64,000 bases of DNA from Neolentinus lepideus HHB14362 ss-1 (taxonomy: Eukaryota; Basidiomycota; Agaricomycetes; Gloeophyllales; Gloeophyllaceae), in contig KV425656.1 in assembly GCA_001632425.1 (NCBI GenBank), positions 23,039-87,038 of the forward strand, given 5' to 3'. The notes beneath the pieces were generated by a model. The model did not search any database. It saw nothing but the letters and a program-made list of their open reading frames with translations, and was not told the origin of the DNA. Within the stretch, counting starts at the first letter, position 1, and each line of letters opens with the position of its first letter. Positions 49,679 through 62,324 of this stretch are shown here, piece after piece. Made by a program: the position numbers and the translations under genes.

Positions 49679-49686
49679 AGTCACTT
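49679..49686. repeat. Left target-site duplication (AGTCACTT)
   Basis: Eight bases, AGTCACTT, directly abut the left inverted repeat. They recur exactly at 59156-59163 after the right inverted repeat. This is the direct footprint of insertion. Confidence 0.85.
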
Positions 49687-49711
49687 ATGACGGTCCGTTT
49701 GACCTTTTAAT
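49687..49711 (+). repeat. Left terminal inverted repeat
   Basis: The 25 bases start ATGACGGTCC. They differ from the inverted right end at three positions only. Tandem AT-rich subterminal repeats follow. Confidence 0.85.
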
Positions 49712-49809
49712 CGAGGCCGCATATATTACCACAGCACATATATATCAATAACAGGTTAACATAATTCCGCATATATATCATATCACACATTGAGCATTAT
49801 CAACGCACC

Positions 49810-49867
49810 ACATATATATTTGAACACAATTGTCAATCACACATATATTCAAATACAGTTGTCAATC
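49810..49867 (+). repeat. Subterminal tandem repeat, two ~29-bp copies
   Basis: Two imperfect copies of an ACATATAT...ACA-TTGTCAATC unit lie side by side within 200 bp of the left end. Subterminal repeats often serve as transposase-binding sites; that role is inferred. Confidence 0.5.
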
Positions 49868-50006
49868 GGACATGTAGTCAGACGTGCTCACTTCACATAG
49901 GGTGTTGAAGTCTGTACGATGGAGTCTTTTATTTAATACCAGCAAGTAAAGGACATCATCTTTTACGTGCTGTGATAGTATATAATACCTCATACAATAC
50001 CTCTAT

Positions 50007-51772
50007 CTACAGTGACGGCCAAGGGCTAGTGCGAGGTTTACCCGGTGAGGGTAGCTTTGGCTTTGCCTGCCAGAACAAAACTCCATCCGCATATGCTGCC
50101 CCACCACTGATAGACATTGAGCCACTGCCCGATGCAACAGGCTCTCCAGCATCACCAGACCCTTCAGAAGGAAAAAATAATATGTCGTTTAACCCCTCAA
50201 CATCCCAAGGGTCTGCTCCATCAACGTTGAAAGGGTTTGCTTCAGCTGCAAGCATGCGGTCAGTCATACAATAATCGCAGCACCACTGGACACTTACAGC
50301 CATGCCCATCACCATTCACCTTCATCTTCTTAGTAGACGATCCTTCGACAAACTCTACCTCACTCTCCTCTGCATAGCTTCTCTTCTTCTTACCATGCAA
50401 GCGCAAGGACTTTCGCACACCCTCATTCTGCAACCCACCACCCAGCTCCTCCCAGTCGCTTACATCCTCAGAATTCCCCTCTCGAACGGCATCACTCTCA
50501 TCTTCTGACGATGAAGATGACTCACTAGCCTCTGATGCATCTGGGTTATGCACGTAGAGCTTCCCCTTATGACGAATAGCCCCAGATGCAGGCGCAGCTC
50601 CTTTATATGCAGGACGAGGCTTAGGACGGGAGGAGGGAAGACCAGAGAGACCCTCGTTATCCGAACCAGGGTCGCTAGCTTCTTCTTCATCTGTGGTAGG
50701 GTCGCCAGGATCCTCCCCAACGCCGATGACTTCAGGCAAGCCCTCTTCGGCCAGAGTGATGGCTGACTCCCAGTTCTTGAAGGCTGATTTGGGTATTCGA
50801 TGAGCTGAGACTGAAACACACAGGTAAGATGTTATTGACAGCTGGATAGAGTACGTGACGTACCAAAGTGCACTACATAATCATCGGTGTTCTTGCCTGG
50901 GCCACCCCTGACCTTGAACAAGTCGTGGCCGATATACTCACCGCTCCTTTCAACTACTGCAATCTTCTTTCGGTCCTTGAGCAGAGCTTCCAATGGTACT
51001 GGCCATCATCAGGCACCCCATGCCGAGCATCAAGGTACATGAAAGGCTTGGGGAGCAAGCGTCGGAGCCAGCCATCGATCGTCTCTGAGCTCCACTCCTT
51101 TGCAAAGCTCAGGACTGAATTACCATCACGATCGATGGTCAAGCCAGCCCTCTGGAGTGTCGCCTCAAGGTCTGACTTCTCAGGTGCCCTGTGAGTTCGA
51201 ATTTTGCCATTAGACTGGAGCAGTAGTCAGTAATACGTTATACAGAAATCTCCATGTGCATAAGCGTACCTTAACACCATACGGCATCAGAACAACTCGT
51301 CCAATTGTGACGGGTCTTGAAGCCACTTTAGAGGCCTTGGTTGCCTGTGCAACGTCAGTAACCAATACGGAGCACCCAATTGGTACATCCTTACCTTGAT
51401 ACGCGTGTTGCCTCGACCACCAGCCCTCCCCTTCCCCTTCCCACCCAGCCTGCCGCCTGCTTCAGGCACCCGACGGAAGCCAGCGTTGGCCTCACGACGT
51501 GCCTCATCCTCAGAGGCCTTCTCAGGAAGTAGTAGTCGCCCCAAGTCACTGGAGTACTTGCTTACAATCCCAGATATTAAGTCATTCCCTGGTGCAGGGG
51601 TGGAAGCAGCCATGCCTGATGCCTCCAGCGCATGAAGGCTCTCCTTATGATGGCATTCACACCGTTTTTTCGTAGAGGTCTTGCCATTGCTCCTCTTCTT
51701 CGGTTTCCTCAGGACGAACCTCTGACAAGGACAAGGCTGTCCAACGTCCGTCAGACCGTTGCAGACTGGCAT
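50007..51772 (-). pseudogene. Zinc-binding-type protein of the mobile element, frameshifted
   Basis: The N-terminus MPVCNGLTDVGQPCPCQRF followed by KKRCECHHKESLHALE makes a Cys/His cluster likely to bind zinc. A Gly/Lys-rich linker (GGKGKGRAGGRGNTRIK) follows. After introns come VLMPYGVK, LTIDRDGNSVLSFAKEWSSE, TIDGWLRRLLPKPFMYLDAR and HGVPDDGQYHW. At about 50980-50995 the frame must shift to continue ALLKDRKKIAVVERSGEYIG, with no room for an intron. The shifted frame then splices correctly into SAHRIPKSAFKNWESAITLA and an acidic tail with a nuclear-type LRLHGKKKRS. I recognise the style of mushroom transposon-associated proteins but no named family. Role unknown. A sequencing error at the shift cannot be excluded. 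Confidence 0.6.
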
Positions 51773-52339
51773 AGCTGGGCTTCAGACAGAGAAGACGTCG
51801 AGGACAAGGGGCGAAGAGAGGCCCCCAAAACAAAGCTGGAAGCCTTATATGGCGGTCCCGTATCATTTTGCCGGGCAGTCCCGTCAGCCGCTCTTGACAG
51901 CGTTCGGCAGTTTTGCGGAATCTGCCCTGCCAGTTTCGATCACAAGTAGCCTAACCAATATGCCTGCAGCCTTCAAAGCAGATATGCTCTCAAATATATA
52001 AAGATCAAAGTTCGGATCGCTCAGGACCTGCAAGATGATGCTGAGGATGTTCACGAGATGCAACGGCACTTGCTGGTCCTCGGCCTGCTTCGAATGCTGT
52101 ACCGGCGACTGCGAATACAACGTTGGTTTAAATGTTATGAAAGAGGGAATGACGTACGATAAGCGGTCGATTTTTGGCCAAAACCCAGTTTACGCCCTTG
52201 CTCCAGGAGACGAGTCACGAAACACTCTTCCTGCGATCGGCCCTCCAATCTGCGGGCTTCCACATCCTCGGGAAGGCGGCCTTAGTTCTGTCTGTCGCAC
52301 TTCAGTTACGTTTCATATACGGAAAGAGATTTACGTACG
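51773..52339. other. Element interior without a supported gene
   Basis: 5' flank of the zinc-binding-type gene. Short frames only; nothing recognised. Confidence 0.35.
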
Positions 52340-53470
52340 GTCACTTCCGCTTTGTGTGCGCACGGTGCGTGAAACGGCGAAGGCGCGGGCCTGGTGCGGA
52401 AAACGAGGGCGGCGAGGGCAGGGCGCAGGTGGTGCTTTGAGCGGCGAGGGCGGGGCGCAGAGTATGCGCGCAGTACGTGAAGCGTAAATGGGCGAGCGGG
52501 CGTGGTGCGTTAAACGACACCAGCATCAGCATGCAGCAGAGGCGGCAGAGGCGGTTAAACGGCCAAGGCGCGGGCCTGGCACGGAAAACGGGCGGGCGGG
52601 CACGTCACGTGGAACAACGAAGGTGGTTAAACGGCCAAGGCGCGGGAAGCGGGGGGCACGGTGCATGTGGAGCAGCAGACGTGGTTAAACGGCCAAGGCG
52701 CGGGCCTGGCGCGGAAAACGGGGGGCACGGTGCATTAAACAACGCCGGCGTGGGACAGAGGCGGTTAAACAGCCAAGGCACGAGCCTGGCACAGAAAACG
52801 GGTGGGCGGGCGCGTCGCGTTGAACAACGAGGGCGGGGCGCAGAGTATGCGTGCGGTGCACGAAGCGTAAACGGGCGAGCGGGCGCGGTGCGTTAAGCAA
52901 CACCAGCATCAGCATGCAGCAGAGGCAGTTAAACGGCCAAGGCGCGGGCCTGGCGCGGAAAACGGGCGGGCGGGCGTGTCGTGGAACAACGAGGGCGGGG
53001 CGCAGAGTATGCGCACGGGGCGTGAAGCGTAAACGGGCGAGCGGGCGCGGTGCGTTAAGCAACGCCGGTGTGGAGCAGAGACGGCGAGGGCGGACGGGCA
53101 GAGAGGGCTGCAGAGCGCAGCAAGGGTGCGTGGGTGGGAGGCTGGAAGCATAGATGACGCGGGCACGGCCTGCTGCCTTGCGGTGAGTGCTGAGTCCCCC
53201 GGGCGTACTCAGATGCTGGATCATGCAGAATCAGAGGCACACGCACCTCGTAACCCAAGCGGTTCTTTCCCGCTGCAGCGTGTTCGCAGTTCTTCGCAGC
53301 CCGCGACGTCGCAGGCGTGGTGCGTAAGGCGTAAACGGGCGGACGAGCGCGGTACGAGCTTCGACGGCGGCAGATGGCGGTATGCATTCGATAGGCTCCG
53401 TTGCGTTGGATGGCCGAGGCGCGGGCCTGGCGCGGAAAACGGGCGGGCGGTTGAGAGAGACAAACGACGT
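52340..53470. repeat. GC-rich minisatellite
   Basis: At least seven diverged copies of a unit built around GGTTAAACGGCCAAGGCG, then CGGGCCTGGCGCGGAAAACG, begin near 52366, 52551, 52626, 52681, 52761, 52926 and 53403. Longer stretches such as CAGCATCAGCATGCAGCAGA recur about 390 bp apart (52520 and 52907), which shows nested, higher-order duplication. Long open frames on both strands here are by-products of GC-rich repetition, not genes. Confidence 0.75.
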
Positions 53471-54293
53471 ACCGAAGATGCACGCGTACCACCAGTCCGG
53501 AACCACGCATTCTTATCGAGCAGAACGGCGGTGACGTTGTAGGGCGCACCCGTGTTGTCGTACGAGCCGCGGGAGGACATGGGCACGTACTGCAAGTACC
53601 GGGCGTTGGTGTAGTGCATGACATCAGGTGCGTGGGACGGCTGCGTCACGTGATGGAGAGGCTCACACGCAGCGACTCCCAGCGCGACGCGACATGTACT
53701 TCTGGCACGACCTACTGCACGGACCATCGACGACCCTGACCGCGCACGGACCACACCCTGCTGGCGACCTCTACTGCGCTCAGACCTCACCCTCCTGACG
53801 GCCCCTACCACGTACACTACTTAAAGACACGGCACTGTGCTTTTGCCAAACCCAGGCCCCCCGCTGGGTCTGAAGAACCAAGATCATGCGTGGTACGTCG
53901 GCCCATCACCCCTCCTCACGCCTGCTACCACGCCGCGCGCCGCGCGCTGACTGTGAGCACCCCGACGGGTCGTCCTTCACGATATTGCGGACCCTCGTGT
54001 GTCGGCTGGACCCCTTCGGTGTTGTGAACGGGCGCGCTTTGACGCTGTCGAGCATGGCTGCTGCCCCTCGCCTCACTTCTCTCAGCATGATGAGGCTGCT
54101 GACTGCCCTCTTTTCTGTAGCGGCGAAATTTGTTGCACGCTTTCTCCATGAGGTACGCGAACCGTTTCACCCTCATGTGCCCGCCTGACGGCTCTGCTTC
54201 AAGTTTGGGAGGGCCGCCCCTCCAGCCTCTCCAGCCCACTCTGAGACGCTGCCAGCTCACCAGCTTCACTCAACGCACTCCGAGCGCGTCTTC
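53471..54293. other. Element interior between minisatellite and TET/JBP gene
   Basis: GC-rich sequence with overlapping open frames on both strands and no recognisable domain. A plus-strand frame at 53886-54188 could be a 5' exon of the dioxygenase gene, but no splice link was established. Confidence 0.3.
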
Positions 54294-55893
54294 TTGCCGT
54301 GGTCGCAGGCTGACGTGATCCACCCCATGACGCCCTTTGACATCAACGGGGCTTTGGAGGCATGTGAGGGACGTGCTTATGAGAGAGATGTGGAGGAAGG
54401 GACGGAGGGTGACGATGAGGATGACTTGGAGTTAAGCGATGAGCCATGTTGGTTGGTTCATTCTGACTCCATCCTCCTGCCCTGCCTACCATCCTCTGAG
54501 AACCTGCCTGATGCCTCTTCCCCTGCTACACCCTCACACCCTCGGCCCTCACACCCTTGGCCAGCACCATATACTTCGAAGGAGAAGGCAGCATTCCATC
54601 GGCGGCAGCAGAAGAAGCAGCGCCGAAGGAAGGACTACGAAACAGACCCTGCACTCCTCCGAGCTCGGGCGAAGCACAACTTGAAACAAAAGGAGGTTTC
54701 CTTCAAGAGGAAGGGTGAGTCTGAAGCCCTTCCTGTCAAGGGAGATTACAGCAGCCTCCATCGAGGCAAGTCGGGGTACCAAGGAGTCAATGAGAAGAAG
54801 GAATCTGCAGCATCGAAGGAGTATGGTTTGGAAGACCCAGAGATCCAGGCGATGTGGTATGTAGAATGGGACGGGGTGTATGCTATTTGCTTTCGTCTTC
54901 GCTATCTCGATCAACTTTTACTAAGTGCGCCCACAGGTCACCCAAAGCTGTAGTTAACGAGGATGGCAACGGCCACGTCCTTGCAGTGCTGGCTGGTGCG
55001 CCTCGTAACAGCTGGGATGGGGTTTACCAAGGGGCGTATGAAGCTATGGAGGATGCAGGCAGGCGATTTTGTTGCTCGGAGAGGAAGAGGAGCCATCGTT
55101 GAGGGGCGTTTGCTGTTGCGACCACAGGTATATCTCATGGAGGTGGTCGTAAGGTGTGGTACAGTCAAATATGACCCTGCAGTCCATCTAATAAGGCATC
55201 TAGGCTCCAGGCAACGTAGCAATTGCTGCGAAGACCAACCTTGTCATCATTCGAATGCTCCTTGACAACACATTCATCAGGAGAATTGTGGGTTTCACCA
55301 ACCATAAGCGTCCCCCTCTTCTTCCGTATTGTCAACTCTAACTCTTGATTCATGATGTATATATAGATGCATTTGACCTTTTCGCACCACTCCTGTTCAA
55401 CTACTATGCCAATGCTCTGAACTTACTCTGTGAGATGAACAAGAAGCTTGAGCGCCATTTTCCGAGGTCTGCGTTTGCGTGCTATGCGTTCAACCTGGGT
55501 GGGAAGGTGCGATCATACATCCATACTGATCATTTAAACCTTCCCTTTGGGTGGTGTGCTATCACCGCCTTAGGCACGTTCAACCCCCGGAAAGGTGGCC
55601 ACTTGGTGCTCTGGGATCTCAAGCTCGTAGTTGAGTTTCCTCCAGGTTCCACCATCTTCATCCCATCTGCAATCCTTCGGCACTCCAACATCGCGATTCA
55701 GCCTGGAGAAAGACGACTGTCTTTTGTGCAGTGGACTGCAGGAGGGCTGTTTCGATGGGTTGATTTTGGATTCAAGTCTGCCAAGGCTTTCCAGGATGAA
55801 GTTGGCAAGCAGGCTGCTGAGGAAGCAAACTCACGGCGATGGAAGGAGGGTCTTAATCTACTACCACGTCTATCTGATCTCACTTCAACTTAG
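54294..55893 (+). pseudogene. TET/JBP-family 2-oxoglutarate/Fe(II) dioxygenase with in-frame TGA
   Basis: Family members oxidise 5-methylcytosine or thymine in DNA. The N-terminal region is acidic, then basic (KEKAAFHRRQQKKQRRRKDY). A spliced junction leads to SPKAVVNEDGNGHVLAVLAG and APRNSWDGVYQGAYEAMEDA. In KRSHR-stop-GAFAVATTGISHGGG the TGA at 55100-55102 sits where relatives have Arg (CGA to TGA, one C-to-T change). The frame resumes APGNVAIAAKTNLVIIRMLL, then IRRIVGF. The catalytic exon is complete: iron ligands H (55522) and D (55528) in IHTD, distal H in LRHSN (55681), the 2-oxoglutarate arginine in GERRLSF (about 55711), then WTAGGLFRWVDFGF. The exon junction near 55300-55370 is unclear. 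The 5' end is approximate. Confidence 0.7.
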
Positions 55894-55926
55894 TATTTTC
55901 TCATGGTAAATTAGTACGTTTGTAAT

Positions 55927-57912
55927 CTACGACTCCATGTTACTTTCATCAGAGGATTCGCCACCCGTCTCACCGTAGATATCCATGAAATGTGTGAAAA
56001 CACTAAGACCCTGAGCCCATGAAACTGCTCGAGGCCACCAAACTGCAAAGGGCAAGGGTATGTCAACGTACTTACGGCCGCTCCGGATTGACTGAAATTC
56101 AGGATATCCTTCTTCATCCCACTCTGCCTCATGAACTCCAAAGCCTTCTGGGATGGCTGTCTGATTCCGAACGTCTTGCAGAGCAGAAAGAAATGCTGCC
56201 GTGACTTGGGGAGGAAAGGGACTTGTTGCTAAAGGTACGGCAATGGGTTCATGACGAATGTGTCGTTCCTGCTCATGAGCAATACGGTCCTCAAGATTCT
56301 CCTCCTCTGCATCAGAATGGCCAGCCCCACTATGTTCAGGATGGGCGACTTCATGAGCTGAGTCAGCACCATAGTATTGGTTCAAGACATCAGGATGCAC
56401 ATCTCTAAAGTCATCATCGTAGACACCGTGCTCCAATTGACCAAGGAACCGTAAATCCTGAGCTTCATTAGGATCAGATTCTGTTGCAATCAAAGATGAC
56501 TCACCGCAGGGGTTTGATCTGCTTCTCCTGAGATCAGATGGTGGTTCCAGTCTTGTTGAAACTTGGCACAATCATCACGAATGTTGATAAGGAAGAGCGT
56601 GTGCAGCAACCACAGATGCCCAGCATCTTTCGGGTCAAGACGATGAAGTCGCTCAAGCCTGGTAAAGAAAGCATGCCATTGCCGACCAAACTGGGACCCG
56701 ACTTCGACCCAAAGACGCTCAATCCGTGTGTTGCGGGTTGAGCTAGTAAGCCTGATTACATTGCGACAGAAGGCGGTAAGCGGCAGCTACTTACCTTCCC
56801 CACATGAATGAGGCCCGATTTGGCCCACGATACTTTATCATCCATACGCAGACCTCTAAATTCTCGCCACCACGATCTCCTCGCACCCTAGATGGGACCC
56901 CATACTCTCCGACTGCAGCCATGAAGAGGTTCAGGACAGTAGAGGCACGATTGTTTGTATTAACCTCAATTCCGACAACCTTGGGTGTGGAAAGTCAGCG
57001 GTGATCATGCAAGAGGTGCAGTAGAGGCTTACGCTGCAAGAAAAACCATCAACAATGCCATGTACCACCAAACCCCAGCGTATTAGCTTGTGGTATCCAT
57101 CCATATGCCAGAGATAGTTAGGCCGAGGTACGGTGTAATCACGTCGGTCAATAGCTTCATGGTTGCGAAGTACTTGACCAAGCCCATCAATACGGCGAAG
57201 TGACATACGCACACGACGTTTCTGCACCCTCAGTCCATGACCCTTAAAGAAGCCAACCACATAACGTAATCCAGAGGTTGGCCGGTGTTTCTTATAAAGT
57301 CGGACCAGAAGATCAATGTCATTGTCTGATATGTCTGAAAATCGCTGATAGACACCGTAGAGCTTCAGCTGCTTGCTTACAGCATTTCGATGCATTCCCA
57401 GAAGATCTGCAAGCTTCTGGATAGTGATCTTACGATGAGTGGACATAGCTTCCTGCAGCCAGGTAGGATCAATGACCTTTCGGGGACGACCACGAGACCC
57501 AGTCCGAACAATGGTGACAGGATTAAGGCGATGAATTTTTGCCTGCTCACTGAATAGCTTGAGTTGCAACTCAACATCAGTACGGGCAACACACGTACAC
57601 TCCATCAGCAGCCAAAGCAGCCTTCTCCAAGTCCACAGTGACCTTTGCAAGTGCATGAGTACATCCCGAAGTCCAGTTATTGTCAGCCACTTCTAGATCT
57701 AGTGCCTCCAGGATGGGAATCATACGCTTGAAGATGCGTTCAGAGTGTATACGAAGGCGAAGGGGGTCTCCATCTTCCTGACGTAGTAAGTCTGAGGCAC
57801 GGGTGTAGGCATCATGAAGAATTTGATGGGCACGAAGTACATTTGCAGACCAATTGGTACCATCAGGAGAAGGTGGAAGGGCAGGAAACACTAGAGGGCG
57901 AGCCGAATTCAT
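55927..57912 (-). CDS. DDE integrase / putative transposase (rve-type), intact
   Basis: Retroviral-type integrase core, five or more exons, all junctions in frame. The start MNSARPLVFPALPPSPDG leads to a helical region (SERIFKRMIPILEALDLEVA). A GT-AG intron restores AADGVEQAKIHRLNP. A DNA-binding helix-turn-helix-like part follows: GRPRKVIDPTWLQEAM, KITIQKLADLLGMHRNAVSK. The core has NYLWHMDGYHKLIRWGLVVH (first Asp, about 57100), RVRGDRGGENLEVCVWMIK (second Asp, about 56875) and NTRIERLWVEVG (Glu, about 56720), a full DDE triad. The C-terminal part reads HRLDPKDAGHLWLLHTLFLI, DLRFLGQLEHGVYDDDF, LPFAVWWPRAVSWAQGL. A longer frame begins at 58026 but would overlap the BTB start. Widespread in mushroom and some animal genomes. 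It is the probable mobilising enzyme here. Confidence 0.8.
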
Positions 57913-58005
57913 TGGGTTCACTTGGAAGGACGGGCGGAGGTTGTGGCGAAGATACAACAGATGCCAGATTGGGTGGTGGCTGAGGCGACCCTGCTCGTAC
58001 CTGCT

Positions 58006-59022
58006 ATGTCGGTGAAAACTCACCATCCTATCTTCTACTATAAGGACGGCTCATTTAGAATGCAGGTAAGCTACTGGATCTTGCATTAATAAGAGCATGT
58101 ATGCTAAAACACCATCTAGCTTGGGAACACTTTGTACAACCTTCACCTCAGCCTTCTTGCCGAACGATCCACAGTTTTTAAGAACATGCTAACTATGCCT
58201 GCTCCACGTGGAATAGAAGTGGAGGGAAGCTCAGATGAAAATCCGATGGTGCTACCTAGCACAATCAAGCAGGATGAGTTGGATATCCTACTAGAGTACA
58301 TGTTCAAGGGGTATGTCAGAGCAACTGCAGCTGTAGAATGTAGCTGACAGTAGATGAGAAGACATACCGCTGGTGCACCGAGCTTGAAGAATCTCATCGT
58401 GATCCTCAAGCTGTCAACGATGCTGGAAATAGATGATGGATGGAACTTTGCCATCAACGAGTTGCAGAAGGACCCAGGCCTCTCTCCAGCACTTCAATTC
58501 CACCTAGGATGTGCACATCATGTCATCGAGTGGGTAGAGCCTGCCTTTCGGGTGTTGATGGAGATGCCATTCAGCGAGATAACTGAAGAGATGGCTCACC
58601 TGATGGGACCCGACGCCTTCTACATCCTCAGCCAAACCCATGCTCGTATCAGGAATCACAAAACGATCCTCGCCTTCTATCCCTCTGACCCTATCACGAG
58701 CATCCGGTGTTTTCGGCCAGGTAAATGTTCAGAGGCTTGGGTAACCCAATGGTGGCAAGGAGTCGCAAAGCATCTGCTTCATCCCGAGTCTGGGAAGTCC
58801 GGTAGTGATATCTTGAAGATGCTAGAAGAGTTGGGCATCCCAGGAATGTGCCCGCATTGCCAGAAAGAGAATGTCGAATGGGTGAAAGACACGGGGGTAA
58901 TGACGAAAGCCGAAGAGTACTTTGAAGATGCAGTGGCGAAGATTGTATCGGGATATGGGTGCAAGGGAAAGGACGGAGAGGATGAGGCTGGAGACGACGT
59001 TCAACAAGTAGGGCAGGCGTAG
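58006..59022 (+). CDS. BTB/POZ-domain protein carried by the mobile element
   Basis: Three exons (58006-58065, 58120-58310, 58362-59022) total 912 nt and encode 303 aa, all in frame. The start MSVKTHHPIFYYKDGSFRMQ joins LGNTLYNLHLSLLAERSTVF, then KNMLTMPAPRG. This is the strand-helix pattern of a BTB domain, followed by DELDILLEYMFKG and the helical SLKNLIVILKLSTMLEID. This subclass is heavily expanded in agaricomycetes. The C-terminal part has CPHC (58850-58861) and a charged tail. BTB proteins mediate dimerisation and often recruit cullin-3 ligases; its role in the element is unknown. Its start is 93 bp from the integrase start, in divergent orientation, so both may share a promoter. Confidence 0.8.
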
Positions 59023-59061
59023 CAGGTAGTAACATTATTTGCGGCCATCATCCAACTTAAT

Positions 59062-59084
59062 GCGCACTTGGAATGTAAGTGCGC
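59062..59084. repeat. Perfect hairpin near the right end of the element
   Basis: GCGCACTT, a 7-base loop, then AAGTGCGC: an 8-bp perfect stem between the BTB stop and the right inverted repeat. It could be a transcription-end or transposase-recognition structure, or both. Confidence 0.55.
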
Positions 59085-59130
59085 GGTCGGACAATTTGTG
59101 CATATTTGGTCCAATTATATAAGCTTTTCC

Positions 59131-59155
59131 ATTTTAAGGTCAAATGGACCGTCAT
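59131..59155 (-). repeat. Right terminal inverted repeat
   Basis: Inverted counterpart of the left end, closing GGACCGTCAT. Three differences in 25 bases. Confidence 0.85.
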
Positions 59156-59163
59156 AGTCACTT
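59156..59163. repeat. Right target-site duplication (AGTCACTT)
   Basis: Exact copy of the 8 bases preceding the left inverted repeat. Confidence 0.85.
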
Positions 59164-60878
59164 CCCCAAGTCACAAGGTACTTATCTCTCAGGAATCGGG
59201 CTCCGGCCTCCTGATTCTCTTTCTACTGTGACTTTGAGCACATGCAATTTGCGCGCCGTTGCCGAGTTCAGAACAGTATTTATATTCGAGTTGACCATGC
59301 ATGCCTTGACCCGTTTCTCATTGTCGTTCGCAAACTCCAATGGATTTGCGGTCCGGGTTGTCTAAGGCAAGCGCTACCATTAGTAGGAAAATCATGTGTC
59401 AGAAACGTGACTCGTATGTGATCCAGAGCCATGTACAGGAACAGTACAGGAACATAAATCATCTCAGCAATCAATGAACGCCATGCAGTGAGAATGGGGA
59501 GGGCATACCGTCGTGTTAATAGTCTCATCCAAACAACGACAGTGGCATCTTTCCGGTTACGGTCCCAGCCTCACAGCCTGAGCGCTAGGGATATTCGACT
59601 TCAAGGCCATAAATCTACTGTCTCGATGGGAAGTTCAGGGCGGTGGCAGCGCGCGAAGCCTAGCTAAGGACGACAAGGTGGACAGCCATATTCTTTCGAC
59701 TATGCCGGTGCAGTCATCTATTGCCGCAGAATGAGAAGGGGATCCCAAGAATAAGGTCAGTTACAACTTACAACACCGGACGCATGTCATATTCGTCGAT
59801 GGGTCTGTCACGCAACGCCCGCTAAACAGACATGTCATACACGATGATGGCCCCAGGCCAAACAGTGGAACAACTTGCAAAAAAGCACGTCACTCTGTAG
59901 GTTAAGGCCATCTGCCATGAAAGTTGTCCGTAGAAGATACCTTCCGGTCTCACTACAAATGCTCACATAAATTGCTCGCAGTACTCATGACATTGCATTG
60001 ATTTGACAAGCATGTCAACAGGCAGTAGGAAGATCTAACTGCGTACATAATATCCAAGGGATCCTAAGCAAGGAACCGTAAGTACCAAGCCAGGAACAAT
60101 AATCGAATGAAGGAAGAAATCAGAGAAGCCGGTATTTTCATATTCTCCGCCCAGCAACATCTCTAACACTCGGCCCCATCCTATCAAAACGACAAGACAG
60201 TACACGGCTTCCTGCAAGCAAGAAGCGAGCACAGAAACATTGCAGCAGGCGAAGCGTTCAAAGAATGGATGAACTTGTTTTCGTCTCGGAAAACATGCAG
60301 TAAACCAGATACTCACCCGTTCAGAATATCTCAATAAGATCTGTTAGGGTAATATCGTCAGAATAGTTCACGAATACAACAGTACAACGAATGGAAAAAA
60401 GGGGAAGTCAGTGAGTTTTTTGGTATAAGGTTGTCCACCAGGAGATTACTCTCTCTTTCGGAAGCAGAACTGATTGATGAATCATCATAGAAAATGGAAG
60501 AATGCGCCATCGCATCAGTATGAAACAAAATACTCACTTCAACGTCCAGAGGCGGCGGTGGACGTGGACGTCTGGACACCCAACCGCAAGAAACAACGCA
60601 ACTGCTGGACAAGGATGACGCGAGGTACGAGCGGCTCAGACGTGATGTCGAGCCAAGCTAAGAGCGTGCGAATGAGACCACGTGCGCTGAGCACGCGTCC
60701 GCCATGTGGCGCACCCTCTGCTTGGCTTCCATTCGGGCTCAGCGCGCCCTCACTCTTTTTCTCCATTACGCGTCGCTCGCCAGCAAGCTCGACTCCGTTT
60801 CTCTTTCGCCGACTCTCGATTCTTAAAACCACACTCTCTGTCGCGTCTAGTGTCCACCGGCTAATATTTCTTCAAGCC
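59164..60878. other. Gene-poor stretch with possible decayed membrane-protein exons
   Basis: No confident gene. Minus-strand fragments look membrane-like: VYCLVVLIGWGRVLEMLLGG, SDFFLHSIIVPGLVLTVPCL (60035-60334) and ALPILTAWRSLIAEMIYVPV (59400-59528). A possible N-terminal piece lies at 60358-60520. The intervening frames contain stops and the splice sites are not convincing. The right part is the 5' leader of the retroelement Gag ORF. Confidence 0.3.
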
Positions 60879-62324
60879 ATGAGAATCTTCGGTCCCAAAC
60901 ACAAGAGCACAGACCCGAGCGCCTGGAGCCTCTGGCTGTCCAGCCTCTCGGCGCAGGATAAGAGTACTCAGAATGATATGCGTAATAAGGCTAATGAATT
61001 TAAGAAGCAACAGCTGGCGCTTCTCGACACTGAAGGAGAAGGCGGAGCCGACGCGTCGGGCTCATCCGCTGGCGCTGGACGGACCCTTTCGCGGGTATCG
61101 TCTTTTGCGAGCATGATCTCGATGCCGCCGGATGGCGACGACACCCAGGGCGGTGGCGGTGTCCCGGCGCCTCCTGCGCCACCTGCACGTCCTCAGACCC
61201 CTCCTCGTCAGATCTCGCTTAGTTCTATGGGTTCGCCGTCTCGATGGTCCCCGGTGACGAAGTTGGCGATGGAGATCGCGAAGGACCGTACGTCGCTTCT
61301 GGATTACCTCAGTAAGAAGAGGTCCGTGGAAGAAAAGCCTGCTGAAGAGGATGAAGACAACTCGAGGGTTCCGAAGAAGATGCGTGCTCTACGCACTACG
61401 GATGAAGAGATACCCTCCGAGCCGGGCGCCCCGTCAGGCCTGGACGCCTTCCATGAAGAGATCAAGATCCTATTTTGGAATAAACAGTACCTTCCAATTT
61501 CACTTTTCATTTTTGATGAGTTGAATAGATTCATGGTGGGCGCGGATCTCATGCCCAAGAGGAAACTCGACAACAAGATGAGGATCCTCGACCTCTCAGC
61601 AATCGACCTTACCGATGAACATTCCCTCACGACGGGCCAGTGGCGCGAGGCTGTTGACAATTATATTCGCTTCTGCAAGTTGGTCGGCGCTGAGGACTTC
61701 GTCCAGCGCTGGCAGGAGCATTTCAATTGGTTCATTCGGCTTCCCGCCTTCGAAAAGCAATGGCCCTCCATCCGGGAGACGGACATCGCGTTGCGAAGGC
61801 AGTACCGTACGCGTCCTTTCCAGTTCAACCCAGCGGCTTACCAGATGAAGCACCTGGAGATCTCCGAGCTTATCCGGAAAGGGGCTCTCCAGACTACCCC
61901 ATCTAGACCCTCTGGTAGGCAGGGACAACCGTCGCGTGGCGGACCCTCCCACGCAGGCGATGCTCAGCCGATGGGACGTGCGCGTGGTGGTGGTGCCGGG
62001 CCTGCGCAAGGTCGTGCGCCCTTTCGGATGGGCGGTGGGGGCGACCCTTCGGCCTCCATCTGCCTTATATGCTCTAGGAGGGGGCATCTGGTCCCCGGAT
62101 GCACCTCGGGCCAATTCCCGGGAGGGGGACAGGTCTTCGCGGAAGCGAGGAACGGCTCTCTCTTCGCCAGAGGTAGAGACGAAGAAATATGTCGCCGATG
62201 GAATGTTGCCGGCACCCAGACCTGTCGTCAGACCGACCACCCCGCACGTCGACACACCTGTTCCTTCTGCGGATCTGGCGACCACCACGCCTTCTCGTGG
62301 TCTTGCAAACCCAAGCCCAACTGA
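60879..62324 (+). CDS. Retroelement Gag-like protein with CCHC zinc knuckle
   Basis: 481 aa from MRIFGPKHKSTDPSAWSLWL. The same frame is open upstream to 60474 but that part looks like leader sequence. There is a low-complexity Pro/Ser/Asp region, then a helical core (FHEEIKILFWNKQYLPISLF, WREAVDNYIRFCKLVGAEDF, WQEHFNWFIRLPAFEKQWPS). An Arg/Gly-rich linker precedes a nucleocapsid-type knuckle, CLICSRRGHLVPGC (C-x2-C-x4-H-x4-C), and a second Cys/His cluster, CSFCGSGDHH. It lies directly upstream of and overlaps the reverse transcriptase frame. The RT layout resembles DIRS-type or related non-LTR/YR elements more than classic LTR ones, but terminal repeats and a recombinase lie outside the window. 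Confidence 0.75.
   Translation: MRIFGPKHKSTDPSAWSLWLSSLSAQDKSTQNDMRNKANEFKKQQLALLDTEGEGGADASGSSAGAGRTLSRVSSFASMISMPPDGDDTQGGGGVPAPPAPPARPQTPPRQISLSSMGSPSRWSPVTKLAMEIAKDRTSLLDYLSKKRSVEEKPAEEDEDNSRVPKKMRALRTTDEEIPSEPGAPSGLDAFHEEIKILFWNKQYLPISLFIFDELNRFMVGADLMPKRKLDNKMRILDLSAIDLTDEHSLTTGQWREAVDNYIRFCKLVGAEDFVQRWQEHFNWFIRLPAFEKQWPSIRETDIALRRQYRTRPFQFNPAAYQMKHLEISELIRKGALQTTPSRPSGRQGQPSRGGPSHAGDAQPMGRARGGGAGPAQGRAPFRMGGGGDPSASICLICSRRGHLVPGCTSGQFPGGGQVFAEARNGSLFARGRDEEICRRWNVAGTQTCRQTDHPARRHTCSFCGSGDHHAFSWSCKPKPN

Follow-up and report, generated by a model that had tools for sequence, protein, structure and literature searches.

What kind of transposon carries a gene for a TET/JBP-family dioxygenase in a mushroom, and what could such a passenger do for it? 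The question is raised by an element in Neolentinus lepideus HHB14362 ss-1 (Agaricomycetes, Gloeophyllales), which lies in a stretch of 64,000 nucleotides of contig KV425656.1 (the window; part of C106, the C-numbers being contigs of the 33.8-Mb genome) and is overlapped by the annotated protein NEOLEDRAFT_1189264 (P0001). The original prediction had described a complete transposon with an 8-bp target-site duplication (TSD), perhaps of an undescribed family, that encloses the dioxygenase together with an rve-type integrase, a BTB protein and a zinc-binding-type protein. Taken as a whole, the locus is likely to be a complete transposon of the IS3EU superfamily, with a 6-bp duplication and with TET as anti-silencing cargo.

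Ends of the element and its superfamily

The element spans positions 49686-59156 of the window (9,471 bp) and is bounded by inverted ends. Its left terminal inverted repeat (TIR; 49686..49714, plus strand), which starts TATGACGGTCC, and its right one (59128..59156, minus strand), which ends ...GGACCGTCATA, are complementary at 25 of 29 positions; among 12 randomly chosen pairs of window stretches of 250 bp each, the top inverted 29-mer reached only 16-20 of 29. This bears out the complete transposon with TIRs that had been proposed, including the 22/25 end match as it was counted then, and the interval is almost certainly one complete DNA transposon.

The length of the duplication had to be read from related copies. 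The 8-mer AGTCACTT does flank both ends (49679-49686 and 59156-59163), and from one copy alone it is ambiguous whether its outer bases belong to the element or to the duplication. A genome-wide search with the exact window termini (up to 3 mismatches) returned no second copy. The looser pattern TATGACGNTCCNWWTGCACTTWWA (up to 3 mismatches) found 23 genomic termini, two of them the window's own, against 0 for the reversed-pattern control. All 23 start with TATG (control 0) and, because the relatives share this start, the outer bases are the element's own: the T at 49686 and the A at 59156, read as outer bases of the 8-mer, are where the element terminates, and the match that each has on the opposite side is due to chance (about 1 in 16). 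Both ends were available for eight copies, seven from the TATGACGNTCCNWWTGCACTTWWA search (window included) and C37, picked by scanning related-transposase loci for TATGACG and TACGACG; for C2 and C9, no right end was found in the sequence examined around the element. The six bases outside TATG..CATA form identical pairs in four of the eight, GTCACT in the window, GAAAAC in C62, ATGGAC in C24 and CCCCTG in C37. They agree at five of six bases in two (TTACGA/ATACGA in C46, CGATAC/CGATAG in C48) and at four of six in one (TGCCAG/TGCTGG in C8). The flanks of the remaining copy, C13 (ATGACG/GACGTC), are not a 6-bp repeat and weigh against this parse.

A new superfamily whose retroviral-type integrase makes 8-bp duplications is highly improbable. 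It would account for the exact repeat of AGTCACTT at both ends, and makers of 8-bp duplications do exist, Zisupton and Dileera, which are other superfamilies with transposases of their own (PMC12730594). The copies within this genome contradict it: the 8-bp reading fits the window element alone among the paired copies and is broken in C62 (TGAAAACT/AGAAAACG), C24 (CATGGACT/AATGGACA) and C37 (ACCCCTGT/ACCCCTGA), all of which have an exact 6-bp repeat. The ends are therefore best parsed as TATGACGG..CCGTCATA with a 6-bp duplication GTCACT (49680..49685 and 59157..59162), and the 8-bp anomaly dissolves.

The transposase gene (55927..57912, minus strand) encodes 594 amino acids in five predicted exons, with GT-AG introns throughout and no stop or frameshift. 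Its spliced protein matches Pfam rva_4 at E 8e-64 with D255, D312 and E347, confirming the rve-type integrase and, as also foreseen, an enzyme that is not of KDZ type, though no genome search aimed at KDZ transposases was made. Helix-turn-helix matches upstream of the core are weak, and a single Cys lies there, so that there is no HHCC zinc domain. The marks published for IS3EU/GingerRoot are TA..TA ends, a TSD of usually 6 bp and an rve-like transposase without an HHCC domain (PMC10045372). The window element has TA..TA termini, a 6-bp duplication and an rve-like DDE transposase lacking HHCC, and because these match we file it, very probably correctly, in the IS3EU superfamily, not in an undescribed family. 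A point against it is that the assignment is drawn from the termini, the TSD and the kind of transposase. Scoring 7,993 candidates gave 531 transposase homologues at E 0.001; among the 120 matches listed, most of the named ones belong to Agaricomycetes, while fish, a tardigrade and Rhizophagus contribute some, none of which is labelled IS3EU. IS3EU elements have been annotated in the mushrooms Phlebopus portentosus (PMC12411881) and Ganoderma leucocontextum (PMC8955403). From its family and anatomy, the DDE transposase would bind the TATGACGG termini, excise the element and join it across a 6-bp stagger.

The TET/JBP gene here and in related elements

The dioxygenase gene (54327..55893, plus strand) lies tail-to-tail with the transposase gene and has four predicted exons (54327-54856, 54937-55153, 55204-55291 and 55367-55893) separated by GT-AG introns. 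A first model with a frameshift near 55062 was rejected by comparison with the Heliocybe sulcata homologue P0003, which shows an unbroken reading frame containing a single TGA and places the second intron differently. The query for the homologue search and for the first solved-structure search held a 21-residue wrong-frame stretch from before that correction; the search gave 609 homologues, from many mushroom genomes, among 7,999 candidates scored. P0003, 61% identical to the window TET, has a double-stranded beta-helix nearest to TET structures, its best Foldseek match being CcTet of Coprinopsis cinerea (PMC11040006), with which it shares the TET fold at about 14% identity in the structural alignment. 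The HxD..H..R catalytic residues are present in the window protein. Based on the fold of this homologue, we are highly confident that the window dioxygenase has the TET/JBP fold, in agreement with the original prediction. Some results weigh against this: the Pfam Tet_JBP match is weak in the homologues and absent for the window piece, and sequence searches of solved structures (including one with a profile at E 10) matched no TET. The gene has an in-frame TGA at 55100-55102. Because of this stop codon, and of a frameshift in ORF2 (described below), the window element has probably lost full competence.

The types described for transposon-borne TETs include the AG type, close to CcTet and with Gly/Ser and Asp at CcTet positions 331 and 337 (Kyakuja), the PE type with HxE, and a PU type with conserved residues of its own (PMC12730594). 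Counted by ungapped offset from His326, the window TET has Asn for CcTet Gly331 and Cys for CcTet Asp337; human TET2 has Asn1387 at the Gly331 position. Asn and Cys are found in 119 of 119 homologues among the matches listed, as is HxD in place of HxE. Judged by these residues, the window TET bears neither AG-type nor PE-type hallmarks.

Within the genome, the transposase tree joins the window, C2 and C9 copies in a clade (support 98/100) whose inner order it leaves unresolved. TET was probably present in the ancestor of these three, and the simplest history would be a single gain before they split, followed by loss in C2. At the place that TET occupies in the window element, between transposase and ORF2, C2 has a 654-aa Myb-like open reading frame (ORF; C2:878096-880057, just below the Pfam cut-off), which may be a different cargo or a nested gene. 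TET remnants were not detected in C2, C13, C98, C37 or the readable part of C62 (best E at least 0.04 each), 7.6 kb of the C62 element reading as N. Points against this history come from C9, a decayed copy with 11 stops in its pasted transposase, in which a piece of TET is kept, likewise tail-to-tail with the transposase. Because this piece falls with Heliocybe P0003 in the tree and not with its window counterpart (98/92, with 12% of the columns filled), the window copy and C9 may instead have gained TET separately.

The closest known systems are TET-bearing IS3EU elements of rust fungi and Tuber indicum (Kojima 2025, PMC12730594), which share with the window element the IS3EU-type ends, the 6-bp TSD, the DDE transposase and an adjoining internal TET/JBP gene. 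This publication, of December 2025, takes away the novelty first supposed for TET carriage by such a transposon and, with its 11 TET-bearing lineages, supersedes the statement that fungal TET/JBP expansions are tied to KDZ. The differences are nevertheless clear. In the rust elements TET stands between the transposase and an alpha-kinase, whereas in the window ORF2 lies beyond TET, a BTB gene is added and no alpha-kinase occurs among the ten window proteins scanned against Pfam. The rust ends TAYGG..CCRTA are not fitted by TATGACGG..CCGTCATA, although TATGGCGG, one end each of C8, C46 and C48, does fit TAYGG. The host is a mushroom of the Gloeophyllales, and its TET is without AG or PE hallmarks. 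The TET-bearing Kyakuja, Zisupton, Plavaka, EnSpm and Helitron2 elements of Agaricomycetes are likewise mushroom transposons with TET/JBP cargo, but they have other transposases and TSDs and AG- or PE-type TETs, unlike the Asn/Cys and HxD of the window (PMC12730594). IS3EU/GingerRoot elements without TET have the same ends, TSD and transposase, to which the window adds TET, BTB and host gene fragments (PMC10045372). Among the papers listed on mushroom TETs in combination with IS3EU or MULE, only PMC12730594 was directly relevant, and its main text mentions no TET-bearing IS3EU in mushrooms. Both the superfamily and the sort of cargo are known; the combination and the host group are new.

A second TET carrier was observed in the same genome, a Mutator-like element at C69:135233-145050 with 28-bp TIRs and a 9-bp TSD. 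Its ends are GGCTAGCAAG(TG/AC)CGCACAAAGTTCACAC and its duplication is CAGACACAG, in a repetitive flank that makes the TSD weak on its own. The transposase (C69:136682-138683), in two overlapping ORFs of different frames, matches Pfam MULE (2.6e-8) and SWIM. Tail-to-tail with it there is again a TET gene, on the minus strand at about C69:139038-140675, with one stop in the stretch analysed. A genome search found nine ends of this type, including the element's own two, against 0 in the control. Two short copies with both ends were compared: the 9-bp duplication is exact in C22 (TGAAATTGG) and agrees at 7 of 9 bases in C7. In a TET tree of 30 rows, six Gloeophyllales rows are split from the other 24 by a 100/99 branch, and they would make up a clade only with a root placed within those 24. 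A group of the IS3EU TETs and Heliocybe P0003 (95/88) stands apart from one of the MULE TET, Gloeophyllum trabeum P0002 and the long-branched C73 (97/96), and rebuilding with the corrected window sequence left the main grouping unchanged.

The 11 lineages listed in PMC12730594 are without MuDR, and those of Agaricomycotina are Kyakuja, Zisupton, EnSpm, Plavaka and Helitron2 only. The C69 element thus probably adds the Mutator-like superfamily to the TET carriers, and may be a larger novelty than the IS3EU element. Kojima reports no transfer of AG-type TETs between superfamilies (PMC12730594); the Gloeophyllales TETs look like such a transfer, of another TET type. New here, then, are a mushroom TET-bearing IS3EU, a TET without AG or PE hallmarks, a BTB gene where no alpha-kinase was found, and a Mutator-like TET carrier in the same genome. 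We give about even chances to the broader proposal that a Gloeophyllales TET subtype, neither AG nor PE, has spread between IS3EU and Mutator-like (MuDR) elements and is used against CpG methylation.

CpG decay and a possible role of TET

Is there any methylation for a TET cargo to act upon? Over 3.3 kb, in which C13 and C62 are about 98% identical, 54 transitions and 2 transversions separate the two copies. The transitions fall at CpG in 49 of 54 cases when counted on C13 and in 52 when counted on either copy, where CpG makes up 284 of 1581 C/G sites, and the T or A lies in C62 in 47 of the 54. Pairs of the 1.6-kb short copies behave similarly, with 23/36, 65/74 and 70/85 transitions at CpG (lenient count) and 7, 9 and 12 transversions. 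We read this pattern from the sequences as the footprint of CpG methylation followed by deamination, and because sister copies differ almost only by CpG transitions, a methylation pressure that TET could counter appears visible. The DNA-methylase family has matches above the cut-off on four contigs, one only with internal stops; it is a common family, matched in 10 of 14 control genomes as well.

According to Kojima's proposal for TET-bearing elements, a cargo enzyme that oxidises 5mC counters CpG methylation (PMC12730594). Applied here, the most likely task of TET would be the oxidation of 5-methylcytosine in the transposon's DNA, which would relieve the silencing of the element by CpG methylation. 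This role as anti-silencing cargo is plausible, and we hold it to be an even call. What weighs against it is that the TET-bearing copies have no higher CpG observed/expected ratio than the TET-less ones, so that no protective effect is visible: for the transposase gene the ratio comes to 0.68 (window) and 0.73 (C9), as compared with 0.77, 0.69 and 0.74 in TET-less C2, C13 and C98 (0.57 in C62, whose element is partly N). Elsewhere in the window it is 0.59-0.60 in the other element genes, 0.86 and 1.02 in the flanks and 0.96-1.37 in the captured and GC-rich middle.

This lack of a milder CpG depletion would also be expected if TET were passive baggage with no part in the element's life, like the adjoining fragments, presumably P450-, CSE1- and transporter-like, which have 81-91% identity to host genes. 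The in-frame stop in the window, the mere fragment in C9 and the absence from C2, C13 and C98 favour that view. We nonetheless regard it as rather unlikely, since the window TET gene is full-length, has several exons and keeps the catalytic residues, TETs recur in 11 transposon lineages (PMC12730594) and a second transposon type of this genome, on C69, carries one too. That TET is instead a chromosomal host gene with transposon pieces nested around it could be suggested by the many mushroom genomes in which genes of this type occur, their genomic context not being visible in the 609 homologues. The single TIR pair and single TSD enclose TET together with the element genes, the order of transposase and TET is repeated at C9, and in the TET-less C13 and C98 the place of TET is still flanked by BTB, transposase and ORF2, all of which makes a host gene very unlikely.

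The find widens the set of transposons with a DNA-demethylation-type enzyme of their own, to which one mushroom order and probably one superfamily (Mutator-like) are added. TET-bearing transposons may show how jumping genes fight silencing by DNA methylation and, as a single small genome (34 Mb) holds a carrier, sister copies without TET and decay of the methylation type, the anti-silencing hypothesis is testable there.

Other genes, captured DNA and neighbours

Beside TET and transposase, the element holds a BTB/POZ-domain gene (58006..59022, plus strand; three predicted exons, open), head-to-head with the transposase gene and confirmed at Pfam E 8e-5, above the curated cut-off. ORF2 (50007..51772, minus strand) has an N-terminal CxCxxF...CxCxH...H motif and a charged tail; the zinc-binding-type protein of the original prediction does exist as this Cys/His-rich protein, its zinc binding being a matter of motif only. 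Relative to the C2 copy it has a one-base frameshift near 50980. Its relatives stand at the same place in C2, C13 and C98, and inspection by eye shows a motif of this sort in C37. Transposase, ORF2 and BTB recur jointly in related copies of this genome. In other mushrooms, the gene models P0137 and P0139 fuse the transposase to an ORF2-like protein; with the tail of P0137 as query, no ORF2 homologue was found at E 0.001 among 7,997 candidates.

Fragments of at least three host genes lie within 51973-53622, a Pack-type capture in an IS3EU-like element. On the minus strand, 51973..52077 (81% to C28:13660-13764), which we take to be exportin-2/CSE1-like, abuts exactly, at the junction 52077/52078, on 52078..52347 (91% to C2:100179-100448), presumably from a P450-like gene. 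A third, 53451..53622 (minus strand), consists of pieces 53451-53504 and 53522-53622, with 87% and 91% identity to C110, and we assume it to be oligopeptide-transporter-like. With identities of 81-91%, these nucleotide matches show that the element takes up chromosomal DNA. Compared with their genomic copies, the P450- and transporter-like fragments have 24 changes from A/T to G/C in the element and 9 in reverse, the opposite of CpG decay; the CSE1-like fragment is without that bias (5 versus 8). Between the fragments, 52354..53450 is filled by GC-rich (67%) degenerate direct repeats with units from tens of bp up to 123 bp which, in contrast to the element's genes, are not CpG-depleted. Upstream of TET, a 40-bp sequence (53969..54008) is 90% kept in the TET-less C2 sister.

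The terminus search also revealed short derivatives of 1-1.6 kb with ends related to those of the window element, at C8:347880-349471, C46:65736-67300, C48:71010-72607 and C24:366532-367496 (965 bp). Directly to the right of the transposon, a 616-aa ORF (window 60474-62324) has a CCHC-like knuckle (CLICSRRGHLVPGC) and appears gag-like by eye.

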